In this document: positions 11,788-21,824 of the stretch, one piece after another | Position numbering within the stretch: position 1 is the stretch's first letter | How the letters are laid out: each line of letters starts with the position of its first letter | Assembly (NCBI RefSeq): GCF_003254705.1 | Contig: NZ_QFYR01000001.1 | Location: 434,001-498,000 of the forward strand | DNA length: 64,000 bases | From: Phenylobacterium deserti | Lineage (GTDB): Bacteria > Pseudomonadota > Alphaproteobacteria > Caulobacterales > Caulobacteraceae | Reading direction: 5' to 3' | Position numbers and translations under genes: made by a program | Notes under the pieces: model-generated | Database searches by the model: none | The model's input: the letters and a program-made list of their open reading frames with translations, nothing else | What the model was told of the DNA's origin: nothing

Positions 11788-14307
11788 TTAGGCGGCGGAG
11801 CCCCGGGCGGCGGCGTCTGCCTCCTGGCGGGCAGTCGAGGCCAGGGCCAGCAGGATGTGGTCGATCAGGGCCTGGGCGCGGATCGGCTTGGCCAGGTGGA
11901 AGTCGGCCCCCGCCTCGCGGCCGGCGCGGATGTGCTCGTCCAGGGCGTTGGCGGTGAGCATGATCACCGGCGTGCGCGCCAGGCCCTGGGCGGCCTCAAG
12001 AGCGCGCAGGCGGCGAGTGGCCTCAAGACCGTCGAGTTCGGGCATCTGCATGTCCATAAGCACGACATCGAACGCCTGTTCGGCGAGCGCTTCCAGCGCC
12101 AGCACTCCGTTGTCGACGATCAGCGGAACGACACCCACGGACTCCAGCACCAGCTGAACGACCTTTTGGTTGGTGGGATGATCCTCGGCGAGCAGGACGC
12201 GCAGGCCGGAGATGTCGAAGGGCTCCTGCGCGGCCTCGGGTTCGGCGGCCGGCGTGTCCGCCAGGCGTTCGAGCGGCACGGTGACGGTGAAGGTAGAGCC
12301 GCGGCCCGGCGCGGAGTCGGCCTCCACCCGGCCGCCCATGATCTCGGCCAGGGAGCGGCTGATGGCTAGGCCCAGCCCCGTGCCGCCGAAGCGGCGGCGG
12401 ATGGAGGTGTCGGCCTGCTCGAACCTGCGGAACAGGCGTGCCTTCACCTCAGCGTCGAAGCCGATGCCGGTGTCGCTGACCACAAAGCGGATCTCGCGGC
12501 CCTCGCCGGACACGTCGAGCCGCACCGCGCCGGTTTCGGTGAACTTCACGGCGTTGCTGAGCAGGTTCGAAAGCACCTGGGTCAGACGCACCGTGTCGCC
12601 GGCGAAGCGGCCGTCGACGGCGGGCGCAACGGTCCAGGAGAAGGCCAAGCCCTTGGCCTCGGCGGACGCGCGGTGCAGTTCGGCGATGCTCGACACCAGG
12701 CGCGAGATCTCGAACTCGTCGCGGGCCAGCCGGATCTCGCCCGCCTCGATCTTGGAGAAATCCAGGATGTCGTTGATCACCCGCTCCAGCAGCCGGCCGG
12801 AGGACACGATCAGGCCGGCAAGTTCACGGCCGCGAGGTGTCGACTGCTCGCGCGCCAGGCTTTCGGAGACGGCGATCACGCCGTTGAGAGGCGTACGGAG
12901 CTCGTGGCTCATGTTGGCCAGGAACTGGCTCTTCTCGGCGGTGGCGCGCTCCAGCTGAGCGGTGCGCTCGGCCACACGATCCTCCAGGGACGCGAGCAAT
13001 GCTTCGGAGGCCTCTCGCTCCTTGCGCAGCGACCGGGCGAGGACGCCGAGCTCGTCGTCCCGGTCCTCCACGTCGGCCACGTCGGGGCGGGCGCGGGCGC
13101 CGAACGCCTCGGGTTCACACGAGCTGGCGAGGCGCCAGATCGGCCGCACGAGCTTGCGCCGAGCCAGCCACACGACCAGCAAGGTCTGCAGCAGGGTGGC
13201 CGCCGCGCCGACGACCAGCACCCACACGGCCGAGCGGGCGGCGGAGGCTGCGACCTTGGCCTTCGGATAGGTCATCAGCAGGTACCAGTCGGGACCGGAC
13301 AGCCGGCCATAGGCGACAATCTGGCGACTGTCTGGGCTGGTGAGCACGCCGGCCGCTTGACCCTTTTGGGCGATGTCGGCGGCGATCTTCTTCAGGCCCA
13401 TGCCCCGCTCGTAGGCGGCGATGGTCTTTTCCGAGGCTTGGCCCGGGGTGGTGAAGCCGGGATAGGCGATCAACTCGCCCCGATTGGTGACGATCAGGCT
13501 GGCCGCGCCCGGCAGCGGGTTCTTGACCGCGTTCAGGAAGAAGCCGGTGAGCTCAATCGAGGAGCCGAAGGCGCCCACGTAGCGACCGTCAAGGAAGGCA
13601 GGCGTCAGGCAGGCGGTGGCCAGCCGCGCGCCGGTCTTGTCCTGCAGCAGGCGCTGCAGCTTGGTGCAACGGGTCGCCCGCTGCGGGTTGAACACCGGGT
13701 TGGTGATGTAGCTCATCTCCTCAGCGGCGATGCTGAGGTCGGCGGGCGCGGTTTCCCGGTAGAACATCAGACGGTCGGGGCGATCGGGCCCGAACATCAC
13801 CAGCCGGGCCAGCGGCGGGGTGAAGAAATAGAAGTTGTCGTACTCGGCGCGCGCGGCCTGGCCGAAGTCGCCCACCAGCTCGAAGGCGGCGACCAGGGTC
13901 TTCAGGTCTCGAGGCGTGATGTGTTGCGCCTCGCCGATGAAGGCGCCGACCCCATAGGTGTAGCCGCCATGACGCATCGTCCCGTCGAAGTACTGCGGGC
14001 GTGAGCGGCGAGTCCCGTCGGGCCGCAGCGGGAAGTACTCGTCCGCCAAGGCAGCCACTTCGGCATCGGGGAGGTGGTCCATGCGGCGCTGCAGCTCGGC
14101 ATTGGCGGAGCGATGCAGGGCCGTGAGATTGGAGAAGCGGCGGTCGATGTTGGCGCTTCGCTCACGGACATAGTCCTGCAGGAAGCCGATTTGCCGGTGA
14201 GTGAGGTCGCGCTGGAAGATCACGAAGGCAGCGACCGTGCCGAAGGCCGTCATCACCAGCGACATCAAGGCGACGCTGATCAGAAAGCTGCGCGAGAGCG
14301 ATTTCAT
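11788..14307 (-). CDS. Membrane hybrid histidine kinase with periplasmic sensor and receiver domain
   Basis: The 839-residue hybrid kinase has a membrane helix at about 8-30 and a periplasmic sensor of about 300 residues (Cache-like by position, with RGELIAYPGFTTPG). A second helix lies at about 355-380, followed by a coiled linker, HisKA with SHELRTPLNG (phospho-His about 467), and HATPase (LSNAVKFTE; DTGIGF; RRFGGTGLGLAISRSL). The C-terminal receiver (about 700-818) has acidic AEDHPTNQ, phospho-Asp in LMDMQMPELDG (about 752) and the AKPI lysine. With no DNA-binding output, signal must pass to a phosphotransferase elsewhere. It is divergent from the glucokinase-like kinase at 14578. The start could be ATG 14307 or a nearby upstream TTG/GTG; no strong binding site helps. 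Confidence 0.92.
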   Translation of the reverse strand: MKSLSRSFLISVALMSLVMTAFGTVAAFVIFQRDLTHRQIGFLQDYVRERSANIDRRFSNLTALHRSANAELQRRMDHLPDAEVAALADEYFPLRPDGTRRSRPQYFDGTMRHGGYTYGVGAFIGEAQHITPRDLKTLVAAFELVGDFGQAARAEYDNFYFFTPPLARLVMFGPDRPDRLMFYRETAPADLSIAAEEMSYITNPVFNPQRATRCTKLQRLLQDKTGARLATACLTPAFLDGRYVGAFGSSIELTGFFLNAVKNPLPGAASLIVTNRGELIAYPGFTTPGQASEKTIAAYERGMGLKKIAADIAQKGQAAGVLTSPDSRQIVAYGRLSGPDWYLLMTYPKAKVAASAARSAVWVLVVGAAATLLQTLLVVWLARRKLVRPIWRLASSCEPEAFGARARPDVADVEDRDDELGVLARSLRKEREASEALLASLEDRVAERTAQLERATAEKSQFLANMSHELRTPLNGVIAVSESLAREQSTPRGRELAGLIVSSGRLLERVINDILDFSKIEAGEIRLARDEFEISRLVSSIAELHRASAEAKGLAFSWTVAPAVDGRFAGDTVRLTQVLSNLLSNAVKFTETGAVRLDVSGEGREIRFVVSDTGIGFDAEVKARLFRRFEQADTSIRRRFGGTGLGLAISRSLAEIMGGRVEADSAPGRGSTFTVTVPLERLADTPAAEPEAAQEPFDISGLRVLLAEDHPTNQKVVQLVLESVGVVPLIVDNGVLALEALAEQAFDVVLMDMQMPELDGLEATRRLRALEAAQGLARTPVIMLTANALDEHIRAGREAGADFHLAKPIRAQALIDHILLALASTARQEADAAARGSAA

Positions 14308-14577
14308 CAACAAGGCGTCGCCGGGGAAAGGAAGCGCAAACGTTAGCGCCCTAGCGTTGCCCACCGGTTTACGAACGATGTGAATCGCCGATCGTCAGCC
14401 ACAGGAGCATCAGCCGCCGAGCCATTCGATGCGTCTGGACGGCCAAGCCGTTGAAGTTCGGCCCGACTTTTCCCGGCGGCCATGTCGAAAAAGCAGCAGC
14501 GACTGCGATTGGGCGACCAGCGGTTTCAAGGTTGCTTAATCGTTTTTGTTCTCATGCTCACAAAAAGGGGAAACGAG

Positions 14578-17187
14578 TTGAACGACGTCGCTCTAGTCGC
14601 CGCGATTTGCCCGGCGGCCTGCCGGTTCGCGCTGATGAGCGACCTTGCGGCTGCGCAACCGGCGCTGTCGCACTTCATGGAGTTCAGGGCCGGCGACTTC
14701 GCGGGCGTTGTCGAAGCCTTCCAGGCCTATGCCGATGCGCTTGGCCGCCCTCTGCCCCCCCGCCTGGGAATTTCGGTGTCCGCTCCGGTGAACGGGACCG
14801 AGCACACCATCACCCAATCCGGATGGCGCATCTCCGAGCAGGAGCTCGCGCAAGCCTTCGGCTTCACCCGTATCGTGCCGATCAACGATGCGGCGGCCGT
14901 CGCCTTGGCGCTGAGCGTCATGGACATGCGCGACGCCGCTCCGCTCGGCGGCTCGGCCCTGCCCCACAATCCCCTGGGCGTTGGGCGCTATGCGCTGATC
15001 AGCCTGGACTTCGGCCTGGGCGTTTCCGCCGTGGGACTGAGCGCCCAGGGCGTGCGGATCATCGACACCGAAGCCGGGCATATGGCCTTTGCGCCTCAGT
15101 GCGAGCTGGAAGAAAAGCTGGCGAGCCGCCTGCGCGCGGTTCACGGCCGCGTCTCCTACGAGCGGCTGCTGGGCTGGCCCGGGCTATCGCAGATCCACGC
15201 CATTCTCGCGGACCGGTTCGGCACGGGCGAAGAACCCCTGTCCCCCCTTGAAGTGGTGCTGAACGGCCGGCCCGGCGGCGATCCGGCCTGCGTACAGGCC
15301 CTCGCCTGCTATTCGCGCATTCTGGGCTCGTTCGCTGGTGACGTGGCCCTGTCGATGGGCATCGACGGCGGCGTGTTCCTGACCGGTCGCTTCCTGTTCG
15401 AAGCCCACGACCAGGCCGACTGGGCGGGCTTCCGCAAGCGGTTCGAAGCCAAGGGGCGGCTCTCCCACTTCGTGAAGGGCGTGCCGACCTGGGCGCTCGC
15501 CAACCCCGGGAGCGTGCTCACCGGCGCGGCCCGCAAGCTGGTCATCGAGCTTGCGCTCGACAGCGGTCGGTCCGCTCAGGCGCAAGCCGACGCGGATCCG
15601 GCCCCGATCGTCAGTCTTCCGCCGCAGGTGGAGGCCCAGGAGTTGCTGGACGGCGCGGCCGCGGGCCTGCTGGTGCTCAATCCCGACCTGAGCATCGCCG
15701 CCAGCAACGACCGGTTCTGGGTCGGCTCGTCCGCGCCGCCGCATCTGCGCCGCAATGGGCGGATGATCGAGGAAGCCTTCTACGCCATGGCCGAGGCCGG
15801 CGACTGGACGCACGAGACCGCCTCCAGCGCCTTTGGCCGCCTGTCCGAGCGTCAGCCCTACAGCCTGGAGCGCAGCGCGCTCGGCGGGATGCTGCTGAGA
15901 GACGACGCACGCCCTCTGCCGGACGGGCGCTGGGTGATCACCTCACAGGACATCACCCGCGCAGCGCGGCGGGCGCGCGAGCTCGAAGACTTGGCCGGTG
16001 AACTGCGCGAAGCGCGCAACGCCGCCGAAGCGGCTAATCGCACCAAGTCCGCCTTCCTGGCCACCATGAGCCACGAGATCCGCACCCCGTTGAACGGCGT
16101 GCTGGGCATGGTGCAGGCGATCGCTTTCGACGAACTGTCGACCATCCAGCGCGAGCGGCTGGACATCATCCGCCAATCGGGCGAGTCGCTGCTGGCGATC
16201 CTGAACGACATCCTGGACCTGTCGAAGATCGAGGCCGGTCAGCTGGAGCTCGAGGAGGTCGACTTCGACCTGCGCACCCTGCTCCTGGGCGCGCACGCGG
16301 CCTTCACCGCCCTGGCCAACAAGAAGGGCCTGTCCTTCACCCTGCAGGTCGAAGACGGCTCGGACGGGACCTATCGTGGCGACCCGACCCGCCTGCGCCA
16401 GATCCTCTACAACGTGGTCTCCAACGCCCTGAAGTTCACCGAGGCCGGCGAGGTGCGCGTCTCCGCGGGCTACGCAGAGGGTGAGCTCCGCCTGACCGTC
16501 GCGGACACGGGCATTGGGGTGGACCCTGCGCGCCTGCCGGCCTTGTTCGATCGGTTCACCCAGGCCGACACCTCGACCACGCGCCAGTACGGCGGCACGG
16601 GCCTAGGGCTCGCCATCTGCCGCGAACTGGCGATGATGATGGGCGGCTCGATTGCTGCGGAAAGCGCTGTGGGCCAAGGCACCACCGTGGTGTTCCGCGC
16701 GCCCATGCCGAAGGTGGCCTCCAGGCCCGCGGCTGCAGCCCTGCCGTCAGACGAGGGCCCGGCCCGGCAAATGGCGCTGCGCGTGCTGGCCGCCGAGGAC
16801 AACGCTGTCAATCGGCTGGTGCTGAAGACCCTTCTGCATCAGCTGGGCATCGACCCGGTGATCGTGGAAGACGGCCAGCAGGCGGTGGACGCTTGGGAGA
16901 CCAGCACCTGGGACGTGGTGCTGATGGACATCCAGATGCCGAAGCTGGACGGAGTTTCAGCCGCTCGAGAGATCCGCCGAAGAGAGGCCGAGAGCGGTCG
17001 GGCCCACACGCCGATCATCGCGCTGACCGCCAACGCCATGTCGCATCAGATCAGCGAATACATGAAGGCGGGGATGAACGGCCACGTAGCCAAGCCGATC
17101 CAGGCCGAAGCCCTGTTCCGGGCAATTGTGGAGCAGGTGGACGGCGACAGCCGCGAGAGCGAGCCGAAGGCGCAGGCGGTCGGTTAG
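14578..17187 (+). CDS. Hybrid histidine kinase with N-terminal degenerate glucokinase domain
   Basis: This 869-residue soluble protein has no membrane segment. Residues 1-325 follow glucokinase (Glk, PF02685) end to end. Against E. coli Glk from memory, the glucose ligands are conserved: Asn103 and Asp104 (PINDAAAV), Glu165 and His168 (TEAGHMAFAP), and Glu195 (SYERLLGWPGL). The ATP motifs are not: GDVGGTNARLAL has become AAICPAACRFAL (residues 8-19), and GAGTGLG has become SLDFGLG (142-148). A PAS-like domain follows (about 345-465), then HisKA (SHEIRTPLNG, His about 499), HATPase (NALKFTE, GGTGLGLAI) and a receiver (734-855, Asp about 779 in LMDIQMPKLDG). TTG 14578 follows AGGGG and aligns with the Glk N-terminus; ATG 14482 is possible but has no binding site. 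Confidence 0.93.
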   Translation: MNDVALVAAICPAACRFALMSDLAAAQPALSHFMEFRAGDFAGVVEAFQAYADALGRPLPPRLGISVSAPVNGTEHTITQSGWRISEQELAQAFGFTRIVPINDAAAVALALSVMDMRDAAPLGGSALPHNPLGVGRYALISLDFGLGVSAVGLSAQGVRIIDTEAGHMAFAPQCELEEKLASRLRAVHGRVSYERLLGWPGLSQIHAILADRFGTGEEPLSPLEVVLNGRPGGDPACVQALACYSRILGSFAGDVALSMGIDGGVFLTGRFLFEAHDQADWAGFRKRFEAKGRLSHFVKGVPTWALANPGSVLTGAARKLVIELALDSGRSAQAQADADPAPIVSLPPQVEAQELLDGAAAGLLVLNPDLSIAASNDRFWVGSSAPPHLRRNGRMIEEAFYAMAEAGDWTHETASSAFGRLSERQPYSLERSALGGMLLRDDARPLPDGRWVITSQDITRAARRARELEDLAGELREARNAAEAANRTKSAFLATMSHEIRTPLNGVLGMVQAIAFDELSTIQRERLDIIRQSGESLLAILNDILDLSKIEAGQLELEEVDFDLRTLLLGAHAAFTALANKKGLSFTLQVEDGSDGTYRGDPTRLRQILYNVVSNALKFTEAGEVRVSAGYAEGELRLTVADTGIGVDPARLPALFDRFTQADTSTTRQYGGTGLGLAICRELAMMMGGSIAAESAVGQGTTVVFRAPMPKVASRPAAAALPSDEGPARQMALRVLAAEDNAVNRLVLKTLLHQLGIDPVIVEDGQQAVDAWETSTWDVVLMDIQMPKLDGVSAAREIRRREAESGRAHTPIIALTANAMSHQISEYMKAGMNGHVAKPIQAEALFRAIVEQVDGDSRESEPKAQAVG

Positions 17188-18484: not shown

Positions 18485-20167
18485 ATGCGCATGCCTCTCA
18501 TCGCCTTCGCGGCCCTCGCCTGCTCCGCGTCCGCCTCCGCCCAGGTTCAGCCTCGAGCTGGATCAGCTGCCGACCTGGTGATCTGGGGCGGTCCTGTCTA
18601 CACGGCCGTGGACGCAGCCCCGCGGGCCGAGGCCGTGGCGGTCCGCGCCGGGCGGATCGCCTTCGTGGGTCCCCGAAGGGGCGCCGAGGCGCTGGTCGGC
18701 CCCGAAACGCGAGTGATCGACCTGAAAGGCGCGGCGCTGTTTCCCGGGTTCACCGACAGCCATGCCCACCTGCGCGGGATCGGCGAGCGCGAGTTGACCC
18801 TGAACCTGGAGGGCTCCAAGTCCGCCGCCGAGGCGGCAGGGCGGGTGCGGCGCTACATCGCCGAGCGCAAGCCGGCCGGCGCGGTTTGGGGGCGTGGGTG
18901 GATCGAGACCGGCTGGCCCGAGAACCGGTTCCTGGAGCGGCGGGACCTCGACCCCGTCTCCGGCGCGGTTCCGGTGTTGCTGATGCGCGCCGACGGCCAC
19001 GCCCTGGTCGCCAATTCGGCCGCACTGAAGGCGGCGGGCGTGGATGAGCGCACGCCGGCGCCGGCTGGCGGACAGATCCTGAAAGGCGCCGACGGCAAGC
19101 TGACCGGCATGCTGGTGGATAACGCCATGAACCTGGTGGCGAAGCTGCGCCAGGCGCCCAGCGAAGCGGACCGGCGCGCAGCCTTCCAGGCCGCGTTCAA
19201 GGTCGAGACGGCCTACGGCTGGACGGGCGTTCATTCCATGAGCGTGGATTGGGCGGACGTGGAGCTGCTGGAGACCCTGGCGAAGGGTGGGCAGGTCCCG
19301 CTGCGCGTCTACAACGCCGTGGACTTCGATCTGGCCGGCCCGCTGTTCGAGAGCGGGCCGCGCAGCGCAGCGGACGGTCGGGTGACCACACGGGCGATCA
19401 AGATCTATGTGGACGGCGCGCTGGGCTCGCGCGGGGCCGCGCTGTTCGCGCCCTACGCCGATGCGCCGCAGACCAGCGGCGCGTTCGTGACGGAGCCGGA
19501 GGCGATCCGGCCCGTGCTGGACCGCGCCTTCGCGCGCGGGATCCAGGTGTCGGCCCACGCCATCGGCGATCGGGGCAACGCCACGGCTCTGGACCTGTTC
19601 GGCGAGGCGTTCCTCAAGGTTCCGCCGAACGTGCGCAGGATGGAGCCGCGTTGGCGCATCGAGCACGCCCAGATCATCCGGCCGGCGGACATTCCGCGTT
19701 TCGGACAGATGGCGGTGATCGCGTCCATGCAGCCGAGCCACGCGATCGGGGACCTGCATTTCGCGCCGGCGCGCCTGGGCCCCGAGCGGCTGGACGGCGC
19801 CTACGCCTGGAAAAGCCTGACGAACTCGGGCGCGGTGGTGGTCGGCGGCTCCGACGCGCCGGTCGAGCGCGGCGATCCGCTGATCGAGTTCTACGCCGCC
19901 GTAGCGCGCAAGGACCTGTCCGGGCATTCCACGCCGCAATGGAGGCCGCAGGAGCGGCTGAGCCGCGCGGAGGCGTTGAAGCTGTTCACGTCCAACGCCG
20001 CCTTCGCGCGCTTTGGCGAGACCGAATTGGGAACCCTGGAAGTCGGCAAGCGGGCGGACCTGACCGCCTTTTCCGTCGACCTGATGACCGCGCCCGAAGC
20101 TGAAATCCCCAAGGGGCGCGCCGTGCTGACGGTGGTCGACGGCCAGGTGGTCCACCAGGCGCCGTGA
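18485..20167 (+). CDS. Secreted amidohydrolase (PF07969, YtcJ-like)
   Basis: This 560-residue metal-dependent hydrolase of the amidohydrolase_3 group begins with a signal peptide (MRMPLIAFAALACSASASA), so it is probably periplasmic. Visible are the composite-barrel start DLVIWGGPVYTAVDAAPRAE, the metal-binding LFPGFTDSHAHLRGIGE (HxH at about 93-95), KIYVDGALGSRGAALFAPY, SAHAIGDRGN, RIEHAQII and GGSDAPVERGDP with the metal-binding Asp. The C-terminal LEVGKRADLTAF closes the urease-like beta domain. Relatives act on cyclic or acyl amides and are seldom characterised, so the substrate is unknown. A DUF4186 gene overlaps its stop. Confidence 0.92.
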   Translation: MRMPLIAFAALACSASASAQVQPRAGSAADLVIWGGPVYTAVDAAPRAEAVAVRAGRIAFVGPRRGAEALVGPETRVIDLKGAALFPGFTDSHAHLRGIGERELTLNLEGSKSAAEAAGRVRRYIAERKPAGAVWGRGWIETGWPENRFLERRDLDPVSGAVPVLLMRADGHALVANSAALKAAGVDERTPAPAGGQILKGADGKLTGMLVDNAMNLVAKLRQAPSEADRRAAFQAAFKVETAYGWTGVHSMSVDWADVELLETLAKGGQVPLRVYNAVDFDLAGPLFESGPRSAADGRVTTRAIKIYVDGALGSRGAALFAPYADAPQTSGAFVTEPEAIRPVLDRAFARGIQVSAHAIGDRGNATALDLFGEAFLKVPPNVRRMEPRWRIEHAQIIRPADIPRFGQMAVIASMQPSHAIGDLHFAPARLGPERLDGAYAWKSLTNSGAVVVGGSDAPVERGDPLIEFYAAVARKDLSGHSTPQWRPQERLSRAEALKLFTSNAAFARFGETELGTLEVGKRADLTAFSVDLMTAPEAEIPKGRAVLTVVDGQVVHQAP

Positions 20168-20730: not shown

Positions 20731-21273
20731 ATGAACACCGCCCGCAAGCACATCTTCGCCGCGTTCGCCGTCTTGGCGTCGGCCGCGCTTGCCGCCGAGG
20801 CCCACGCGCAGGCGCAGGCCAGCCAGACCACCAGCTCGACCGCGACCATCTTCCAGCCGATCCAGCTGGCCAAGAACAGCGACCTGTCGTTCGGCAATAT
20901 CGTGCGGCCGATCTCGGGCAACGGCACCGTCACCATCGATCCCGCCAACGGCGCGCGCAGCGCCAGCGGCCCGCTGGCCATCATCAACACCGGCCCGAAC
21001 GCCACTCCGGGACGGGCGAGCTATACGGTCACGGGTGAAGGCGGGCAGAACTTCTCGATCACCGTGCCGGCCAGCTTCAACATGACGCGCCAGGGCAGCG
21101 CCGACACGATCCAGGTGACCCTGTCCTCCACCGCCGGGGCGGGCACCCTCAGCGGTGTGCTGGGGACCACCGGCACCTCGACCTTCGGGGTCGGCGGCAC
21201 GATCCCGGTGACCAACGGCACCGCGAGCGGAGCCTACGCCGGCACCTTTGTCGTCACCGTCGCCTACAACTAG
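20731..21273 (+). CDS. DUF4402 secreted protein, copy 1
   Basis: The 180-residue protein has a signal peptide (about residues 1-26, ending AEAHAQ) and a beta-rich DUF4402 domain. Typical blocks are IFQPIQLAKNSDLSFGNIV, the Gly/Thr/Asn-rich GNGTVTIDPANGAR, FSITVPASFNMTRQGS, and the final strand AYAGTFVVTVAYN. The last strand resembles the closing strand of fimbrial or spore-coat-U-like subunits, so it may be assembled outside the cell. Its function is unproven. Upstream (20509-20730) is a 222-base gap that should hold the promoter. The second copy starts 11 bases after this stop. Confidence 0.85.
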   Translation: MNTARKHIFAAFAVLASAALAAEAHAQAQASQTTSSTATIFQPIQLAKNSDLSFGNIVRPISGNGTVTIDPANGARSASGPLAIINTGPNATPGRASYTVTGEGGQNFSITVPASFNMTRQGSADTIQVTLSSTAGAGTLSGVLGTTGTSTFGVGGTIPVTNGTASGAYAGTFVVTVAYN

Positions 21274-21284
21274 GTTCAGCGCAC

Positions 21285-21824
21285 ATGCAGATCCAAAGCC
21301 TCGCCAAGCGCATCCTGCCGCTCGCCGTCGTTGCAGCGGCCGTTTTCGCCTCGCCGGCGCTCGCCCAGACCAGCGCGAACCAGTCCACCACCGGCACCAT
21401 CGGCATCTACCAGCCGATCCAGCTGACCCGGCAGACGAACCTGTCCTTCGGGACGGTGATGCGGCCCTCCTCGGGCACCGGCAATGTGGTCATCGACGCC
21501 CAGACCGGCGCGCTCACCGCCACCGGCGGCATCACGCAGGTCTCCAACGGCAACGCCGCCTCGCGCGCGACCTTCACCGTGACCGGTGATGCGGGGATGA
21601 ACTTCAACGTCCAGTACCCGCAGACCTTCAACATGACCCGTCAGAACGGGTCGGAGACGATCCCGGTGACGCTGAACGCCAGCGTCGGCAGCGCGCAGCT
21701 GGTGGGTACGACCGGCGGCGTGGGCACGGCCAACTTCGGCATCGGCGGGCAGGTGAGCATCAGCAACACCACGCTGAGCGGATCCTACTCCGGCACCTTC
21801 ACGGTCACCGTCGCCTACCAGTAG
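21285..21824 (+). CDS. DUF4402 secreted protein, copy 2
   Basis: This 179-residue tandem paralog of the preceding gene has its own signal peptide (MQIQSLAKRILPLAVVAAAV onwards, ending ASPALAQ). The same blocks recur in the same order: IGIYQPIQLTRQTNLSFGTV, GTGNVVIDAQTGALTATGG, FNVQYPQTFNMTRQNGSETI, and the closing GSYSGTFTVTVAYQ. The pair shares length and frame but differs at many positions, so this is an old duplication rather than a recent one. Both are likely in one operon. Confidence 0.85.
   Translation: MQIQSLAKRILPLAVVAAAVFASPALAQTSANQSTTGTIGIYQPIQLTRQTNLSFGTVMRPSSGTGNVVIDAQTGALTATGGITQVSNGNAASRATFTVTGDAGMNFNVQYPQTFNMTRQNGSETIPVTLNASVGSAQLVGTTGGVGTANFGIGGQVSISNTTLSGSYSGTFTVTVAYQ

Follow-up and report, generated by a model that had tools for sequence, protein, structure and literature searches.

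Architecture of the fusion gene

The stretch of DNA analysed here (the window: 64,000 nucleotides of the Phenylobacterium deserti contig NZ_QFYR01000001.1, C3:434001-498000) carries a gene in which a glucokinase domain is joined to a hybrid histidine kinase. It is a single open reading frame (ORF) with the Pfam domain order Glucokinase (PF02685), PAS_7, HisKA, HATPase_c and Response_reg (Table 1). An earlier note on this DNA had given the same coordinates and frame and had read the protein as a PAS-HisKA-HATPase-receiver kinase fused to a degenerate glucokinase, an architecture that the Pfam matches bear out. The TTG start is plausible, because a ribosome-binding-site-like sequence precedes it and start codons stand at the matching place, within one codon, in each of the 7 closest homologues. 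The glucokinase match spans residues 6-319 and profile positions 1-309 of 314 (180 bits, cut-off 22), and a chance match to glucokinase was rejected on its E-value of 8e-53. A frameshift or assembly artefact was rejected on the single open frame and on the fusions found in 12 other genomes.

The HisKA/HATPase/receiver core is intact: H499, N616, DTGIG, GTGLG, D784 and K839 are shared without exception by the window protein and its seven nearest relatives (8/8). Mean pairwise identity among these eight proteins was 0.55 for the glucokinase (Glk) domain, 0.44 for PAS, 0.77 for HisKA, 0.67 for HATPase and 0.75 for the receiver. No membrane-spanning stretch was found in the fusion protein (highest 19-residue hydropathy 1.61), and on that ground we rejected a membrane sensor. 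The host genome (3.87 Mb, 99.8% complete) also carries three standalone glucokinases above the Pfam cut-off.

Table 1. Features of the fusion gene in window coordinates. Clade 1 is the window protein with its seven nearest relatives; pLDDT, predicted local distance difference test.
Feature	Coordinates	Strand	Evidence
Whole gene: pseudo-glucokinase / PAS / hybrid histidine kinase	14578..17187	+	869 aa, TTG start; 12 further Glk-histidine kinase fusions
Ribosome-binding-site-like AAAAAGGGG	14562..14570	+	Sequence; 7 bases before the TTG start
Glucokinase domain, residues 6-319	14593..15534	+	Pfam PF02685, E 8.4e-53; AlphaFold pLDDT 91.3 (1-331); Foldseek
Degenerate phosphate-1 motif AAICPAA, residues 8-14 (E. 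coli GDVGGTN)	14599..14619	+	G12, T13, N14 kept in 0/13 fusions
N103 D104, counterparts of glucose contacts N99 D100	14884..14889	+	N in 13/13, D in 11/13 fusions
DFGLG, residues 144-148, replacing phosphate-2 GTGLG	15007..15021	+	T137 lost in 13/13, G136 in 12/13; G138, G140 kept in 13/13
E165 and H168, counterparts of E157 and H160	15070..15081	+	Each in 13/13 fusions
E195, counterpart of E187	15160..15162	+	12/13 fusions
R271...E275, clade-1 signature replacing adenosine-region G263 and R267	15388..15402	+	8/8 clade-1 proteins
PAS_7 domain, residues 361-465	15658..15972	+	Pfam; least conserved among the named domains
HisKA, residues 490-554, phospho-acceptor H499	16045..16239	+	Pfam; H499 in 8/8 clade-1 proteins
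HATPase_c, residues 601-711	16378..16710	+	Pfam; seven checked motif residues invariant in 8/8 clade-1 proteins
Receiver domain, residues 736-850, D784	16783..17127	+	Pfam; E740, D741, D784, T817, K839 in 8/8 clade-1 proteins

Relatives of the fusion and their tree

Twelve further Glk-histidine kinase fusions were found, in seven of 131 genomes of one genus and in five of 62 genomes of a second family in the order. As these 12 show a similar pattern, the pattern in the window protein is more than chance. Within the window's family (390 genomes) all seven further fusions belonged to one genus and were 47-53% identical over the Glk part; six relatives in that genus are Brevundimonas sp. Leaf363, B. 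abyssalis TAR-001, three Brevundimonas metagenome-assembled genomes (MAGs) and one unplaced alphaproteobacterial MAG. A first contig scan with a single query sequence had found no relative, and re-searching the family with a ten-sequence Glk-PAS profile gave the same eight proteins with matches extending through PAS. Among 100 genomes of the window's own genus (the window's included) there was no second fusion, as judged by identity of at most 47% and by matches stopping before the PAS part; some Glk matches in that genus have long open frames.

An order-wide sample (398 genomes) and then the second family yielded the other five fusions, in the genomes that we label G460, G413, G409, G623 and G488. 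The G460 and G413 proteins could be followed to their stop codons and have two receivers at the C-terminus; two Response_reg matches likewise occur in the G409 stretch before its locus ends. With a cut-off of E 1e-6, Pfam matched PAS_7 in G460 but neither in G413 nor in G409. In a sample of 337 genomes from the class, two other genomes matched at E 1e-72 with matches that end before the PAS part. At most 4 candidates per genome were scored in this sample and in the family re-search. Ninety-one genomes of another family gave no match at 1e-65 in a search made without a positive control. Orders outside the window's order were sampled thinly, so independent fusions elsewhere are possible. A plasmid-borne system was rejected: 63 of 72,556 plasmid records matched, and none covered 80% of the 470-aa query.

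In a maximum-likelihood tree built from 55 Glk rows, with every second standalone glucokinase and six loci (L115-L120) left out, the 13 fusions all fell to the same side of a branch whose Shimodaira-Hasegawa-like approximate likelihood ratio (SH-aLRT) support was 100. The window protein and the seven proteins from its family form clade 1 (support 99), in which the window protein branches first and the other seven group together (88); the remaining five form clade 2 (89). By their tree positions, the fusions fit one fusion origin, and the fusion gene is patchily kept or transferred.

Sugar contacts and ATP motifs in the glucokinase domain

PMC13133996 names Asn99, Asp100, His160 and Glu187 as glucose-binding in E. 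coli Glk. Alignment of the window protein with E. coli K-12 Glk, whose numbering we use in all comparisons across the family, placed counterparts of these four residues and of Glu157 at the window positions given by the earlier note (103, 104, 165, 168 and 195), so that the hexose contacts and the presumed catalytic Asp are all present. Glu157 does not occur by name in the available parts of either PMC13133996 or PMC12312565 and is a presumed glucose contact. The ATP motifs (phosphate-1, phosphate-2 and the adenosine region) have changed. The GDxGGTN of active glucokinases is absent at phosphate-1, and their GTG(L/F)G is absent at phosphate-2; the replacements AAICPAA and DFGLG reported earlier were both recovered in the alignment.

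We compared the 13 fusions with 55 standalone glucokinases, which are the best matches with loci returned and not a random draw. A check of their Glk frames for a HisKA-like motif found 53 free of it, with L030 and L034 not covered by the pattern; L084 and L095, in which the matched stretch has a stop near its end, were left out of the alignment. At least 53 of the 55 standalones agree in 87 columns. Over the 13 fusions the five sugar contacts were kept in 62/65 cells and the other 82 of these columns in 605/1066, and GGTN of phosphate-1 was kept in 5/52. Clade 1 kept the sugar contacts in 40/40 cells and the 82 other columns in 401/656, and the five proteins of clade 2 kept the contacts in 22/25. 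The adenosine-region residues replaced in clade 1 are nearly constant in the standalones (G263 in 55/55, R267 in 53/55). By this alignment, all eight clade-1 members combine degenerate ATP motifs with retained hexose contacts. Changes counted on the tree averaged 0.6 for the five sugar columns compared to 2.96 for the rest (Mann-Whitney p 0.02) and to 3.92 for 24 other polar columns (p 0.007). As most of the ATP-handling parts are lost, the sugar-holding parts are kept and a histidine kinase is joined on, the protein has the appearance of a dedicated intracellular sugar sensor.

Rebuilt positions in clade 1

At four former ATP-side positions clade 1 has one new residue in 8/8 proteins: G136D, G263R, R267E and H301N, corresponding to D144, R271, E275 and N309 of the window protein. 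Elsewhere in the Glk domain, N76Q and G192W are also present in 8/8, and F101 is A or S throughout the clade. In G460 the residues are R at 136 and E at 263, with reversed charges; this was seen once, no such pair being present in the other four clade-2 proteins. A salt bridge may join the rebuilt positions 136 and 263.

Structure models and selection

AlphaFold2 (26 sequences) modelled residues 1-331 with a pLDDT of 91.3 and a predicted template modelling score (pTM) of 0.89, and the three lowest Foldseek E-values were those of the glucokinases 1q18, 3vpz and 1sz2. The modelled domain superposed well on glucose-bound E. coli Glk, a comparison that the earlier note had suggested (1sz2; TM 0.89/0.92, root mean square deviation (rmsd) 2.3), and this form fits better than apo 1q18 (TM 0.84/0.87, rmsd 3.1). 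From homology and the fold match, the five residues would form one pocket. The full-length model was poor (pLDDT 71.8, pTM 0.41) and too weak for reading domain contacts; in it, a single long helix (460-515) runs from PAS into HisKA.

The ratio of nonsynonymous to synonymous substitution rates (dN/dS, Nei-Gojobori) of the Glk domain was 0.077 in the pair G146/G210 and 0.049 in G246/G217, similar to that of the HisKA-HATPase core (0.081 and 0.065, respectively). The Glk domain is under purifying selection in these two close pairs, and its plain decay was rejected on dN/dS. Three more distant pairs (Glk dS 0.8-1.0), in which dN/dS was higher for Glk (0.39-0.46) than for the kinase core (0.23-0.32), say less.

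Sugar genes near the fusion

Glycoside hydrolase family 3 (GH3) genes lay in the 16-kb stretch around the fusion in 4/13 genomes (G186, G246, G217 and G460, the window's not among them), three of them among the seven of the Brevundimonas-containing genus. The neighbours were three GH3 genes, GH43 and a TonB plug in G186, and two GH3 genes and a TonB barrel in G246 and G217, with a cupin, a tryptophan-halogenase-like gene and an MFS gene in addition in G246. In G460 they were GH3, GH10, GH43, a LacI regulator, a cupin and a sugar porter that scored 382 bits as XylE (below the cut-off of 608). G226 has TonB receptors, SapC, a cupin and a halogenase-like gene, with no sugar enzyme among the genes scanned, and in G146 and G210 a Gfo/Idh oxidoreductase gene starts ~25 bases after the stop codon of the fusion. 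The Pfam scans covered some of the neighbouring genes, and among those scanned no sugar gene was found in the window, G254, G413, G409, G623 or G488. On the window's contig, ~80 kb separate the fusion from the closest GH3 gene. There were 4-8 GH3 matches per genome. With ~1-4% of each genome near one, the chance of finding GH3 near the fusion in at least 3/11 lineages was 0.003; this count omits G217 and G146, which nearly duplicate G246 and G210. The association of the fusion with GH3 is suggestive only.

Interpretation

We propose, with a probability of roughly 0.6, that the protein is a soluble hybrid kinase in which a group-II (E. coli-type) glucokinase, no longer catalytically active, serves as the input, binds a cytosolic hexose, probably glucose, and feeds a cytosolic phosphorelay. 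The cytoplasmic sugar-sensing phosphorelay put forward in the earlier note is supported, and the ligand may also be a sugar phosphate or another sugar. What we infer about ligand, response direction and output is as follows. A cytosolic hexose, most likely glucose, which beta-glucosides or xylan oligosaccharides may supply in some relatives, would enter the old substrate cleft and close the two lobes as glucose does in Glk. Lobe closure would shift the kinase/phosphatase balance via the PAS-DHp helix, and phosphotransfer would proceed from H499 to D784, with an unlinked Hpt and response regulator as the next acceptors. GH3 and TonB-receptor genes lying close by may be affected by the output in some relatives; neighbours of this kind are absent around the window copy. 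A wider version, which we advance tentatively and hold to be somewhat short of even odds, is that a glycolytic housekeeping enzyme was turned once, in an ancestor within the order, into a dedicated cytosolic free-hexose phosphorelay receptor. Its ATP site would have been rebuilt, perhaps into a clamp formed by the protein itself, with sugar binding alone then sufficient for cleft closure and signalling.

Several observations weigh against this proposal. The contacts are not universal, since D100 is lost in two clade-2 proteins (D100N in G413, D100S in G623) and E187 in one (E187G in G623); at these two positions clade 2 is drifting. The ATP motifs are only partly lost, with G138, G140 and G262 kept in 13/13 and D9 in 8/13. 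The expectation that other fusions keep the ligand residues and not the ATP motifs held for the contacts in clade 1 and for GGTN, and only in part for clade 2 and for these four residues. The 11 ATP-motif columns averaged 4.27 changes on the tree compared to 2.62 for the rest, which is not significant (p 0.09). Rigid coupling between the Glk and PAS domains is not evident, because the linker is unconserved (22%) and modelled with low confidence (pLDDT <50 for residues 332-352 in the full model). Nine of the 13 fusions, the window's included, have no GH3 gene within 8 kb. G186 and G246/G217 are tree sisters, and counting them once gives 2/10 lineages and a probability of 0.03. Both GH3 probabilities are uncorrected, because the family was picked after the neighbours had been viewed.

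The ligand itself admits two other readings. Another sugar as the ligand (e.g. xylose or a beta-linked disaccharide) is unlikely, though it deserves serious attention, and it would overlap our proposal if it were another hexose. It would suit the GH10 or GH43 enzymes near the fusion in G460 and G186, the XylE-like porter of G460 and the changes at conserved positions throughout clade 1 (N76, G192 and F101); set against this, clade 1 keeps all five glucose contacts, one of them presumed. Slightly less probable, in our judgement, is that the domain senses a sugar phosphate (e.g. glucose 6-phosphate or glucose 1-phosphate), or glucose together with inorganic phosphate, and not free glucose alone. 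E. coli Glk has an anion site beside glucose made up of H160, H183, S185, R188 and R286 (PMC12312565 and PMC13133996). Clade 1 keeps this phosphate-holding site (H160, S185, R188 and R286 in 8/8, R at 183), which counts against a receptor for free hexose and fits a sugar phosphate or a phosphate co-ligand. The standalone glucokinases keep the same residues, including R at 183 in all 55 where E. coli has H, so the site may simply be inherited. In clade 2, moreover, 188 and 286 are changed in 5/5 and position 183 carries F (three proteins) or H (two), with most sugar contacts staying.

It is also conceivable, though distinctly doubtful, that the domain is now a scaffold for dimerisation or protein docking that has given up small-ligand binding. 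The dimer interface of E. coli Glk (described in PMC12312565) and the sugar contacts lost in two clade-2 members would agree with such a role. It leaves unexplained why clade 1 has every sugar-contact cell intact when the other 82 conserved columns have drifted. We consider it very improbable that the domain has retained kinase activity by way of an unusual donor or mechanism, in which case the protein would be a bifunctional enzyme and sensor. Other phosphoryl donors are used by some sugar kinases, and D100, presumably the catalytic base, persists in most fusions together with G138, G140 and G262. Against this stand the loss of G12, T13, N14 and T137 in every fusion and of G136 in all but one, the G263R change in all of clade 1, and the separate Glk homologues of all eight clade-1 fusion genomes (motifs checked in the window's genome).

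Comparison with known systems

A catalytically dead, hexose-binding input would set the fusion apart from systems that it resembles in part. With group-II Glk (PF02685 / NF001416 / TIGR00749) it shares the fold, the length and the five glucose-contact residues, and it differs in its degenerate ATP motifs and the fused kinase; among the 25 NCBIfam models listed, the Glk models fall short of their cut-offs (NF001416, 173 bits against 383; TIGR00749, 129 against 225). ROK repressors (Mlc, NagC, XylR) likewise use a sugar-kinase fold as the sugar sensor of a regulator, and Foldseek also lists Mlc (1z6r) and Lmo0178 (5f7q). They carry a DNA-binding helix-turn-helix (HTH) and ROK motifs, whereas the fusion has a group-II kinase fold and a phosphorelay output, and neither a ROK profile nor an N-terminal HTH is among its 7 Pfam matches up to E 1. 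The bifunctional transcriptional regulator/glucokinase NF010701 (PRK14101) also has a group-II Glk N-terminal to a regulatory module. It matched over the Glk part at 140.8 bits against a cut-off of 920, and its regulator part, which we take to be RpiR-type, is absent from the fusion (no HTH or SIS among the 7 Pfam matches). The HisKA-HATPase-receiver core is shared with hybrid kinases of the TorS/BarA/LuxQ type. These sense via membrane or periplasmic domains, whereas the fusion has a soluble pseudo-enzyme input and no Hpt domain among its Pfam matches.

In eukaryotes, too, sugar kinases serve as sugar receptors, as in yeast Gal3 and the hexokinase sensors, which are not known to use two-component signalling. 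Plant and yeast hexokinases act as glucose sensors according to a 2025 review of glucose kinases (PMC12696579), in which a word search did not find 'histidine kinase'. We found no description of a glucokinase-histidine kinase fusion in the open-access literature, many subscription papers lying outside that search. On the wider version of our proposal, bacteria would have in the fusion a two-component counterpart to glucose sensing by hexokinase. Most sugar-sensing histidine kinases known to us read sugars outside the cytoplasm or via a partner protein; a glycolytic pseudo-enzyme as input would let the cell gauge its own free hexose directly. The series from standalone glucokinases through clade 1 to clade 2 would also be a clean case of an enzyme becoming a receptor, in which the donor site has decayed and the substrate site has survived.

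Other genes around the fusion

The divergent neighbour of the fusion gene (11788-14331, reverse strand) encodes another hybrid histidine kinase. It has two hydrophobic stretches, around residues 20 and 369, and a kinase-receiver part 45% identical to that of the fusion. An Amidohydro_3 gene lies ~1.3 kb downstream of the fusion (18485-20167, forward strand), and in G488, from the other family, a 49% identical Amidohydro_3 gene lies ~2 kb downstream (L145:1830-3449, reverse strand). Two adjacent, similar-looking ORFs with signal-peptide-like starts follow at 20731-21273 and 21285-21824 (forward strand) and presumably resemble DUF4402 proteins. Elsewhere in the host genome, outside the window (C3:530298-533890), a standalone glucokinase gene adjoins a GH3 gene, a context in which some relatives carry the fusion. 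Cupin_8, tryptophan-halogenase-like, SapC and TonB-receptor genes recur in varying sets near the fusion in G246, G226 and G460 (L069:8903-12746, L072:8811-12100 and L108:11797-13101).

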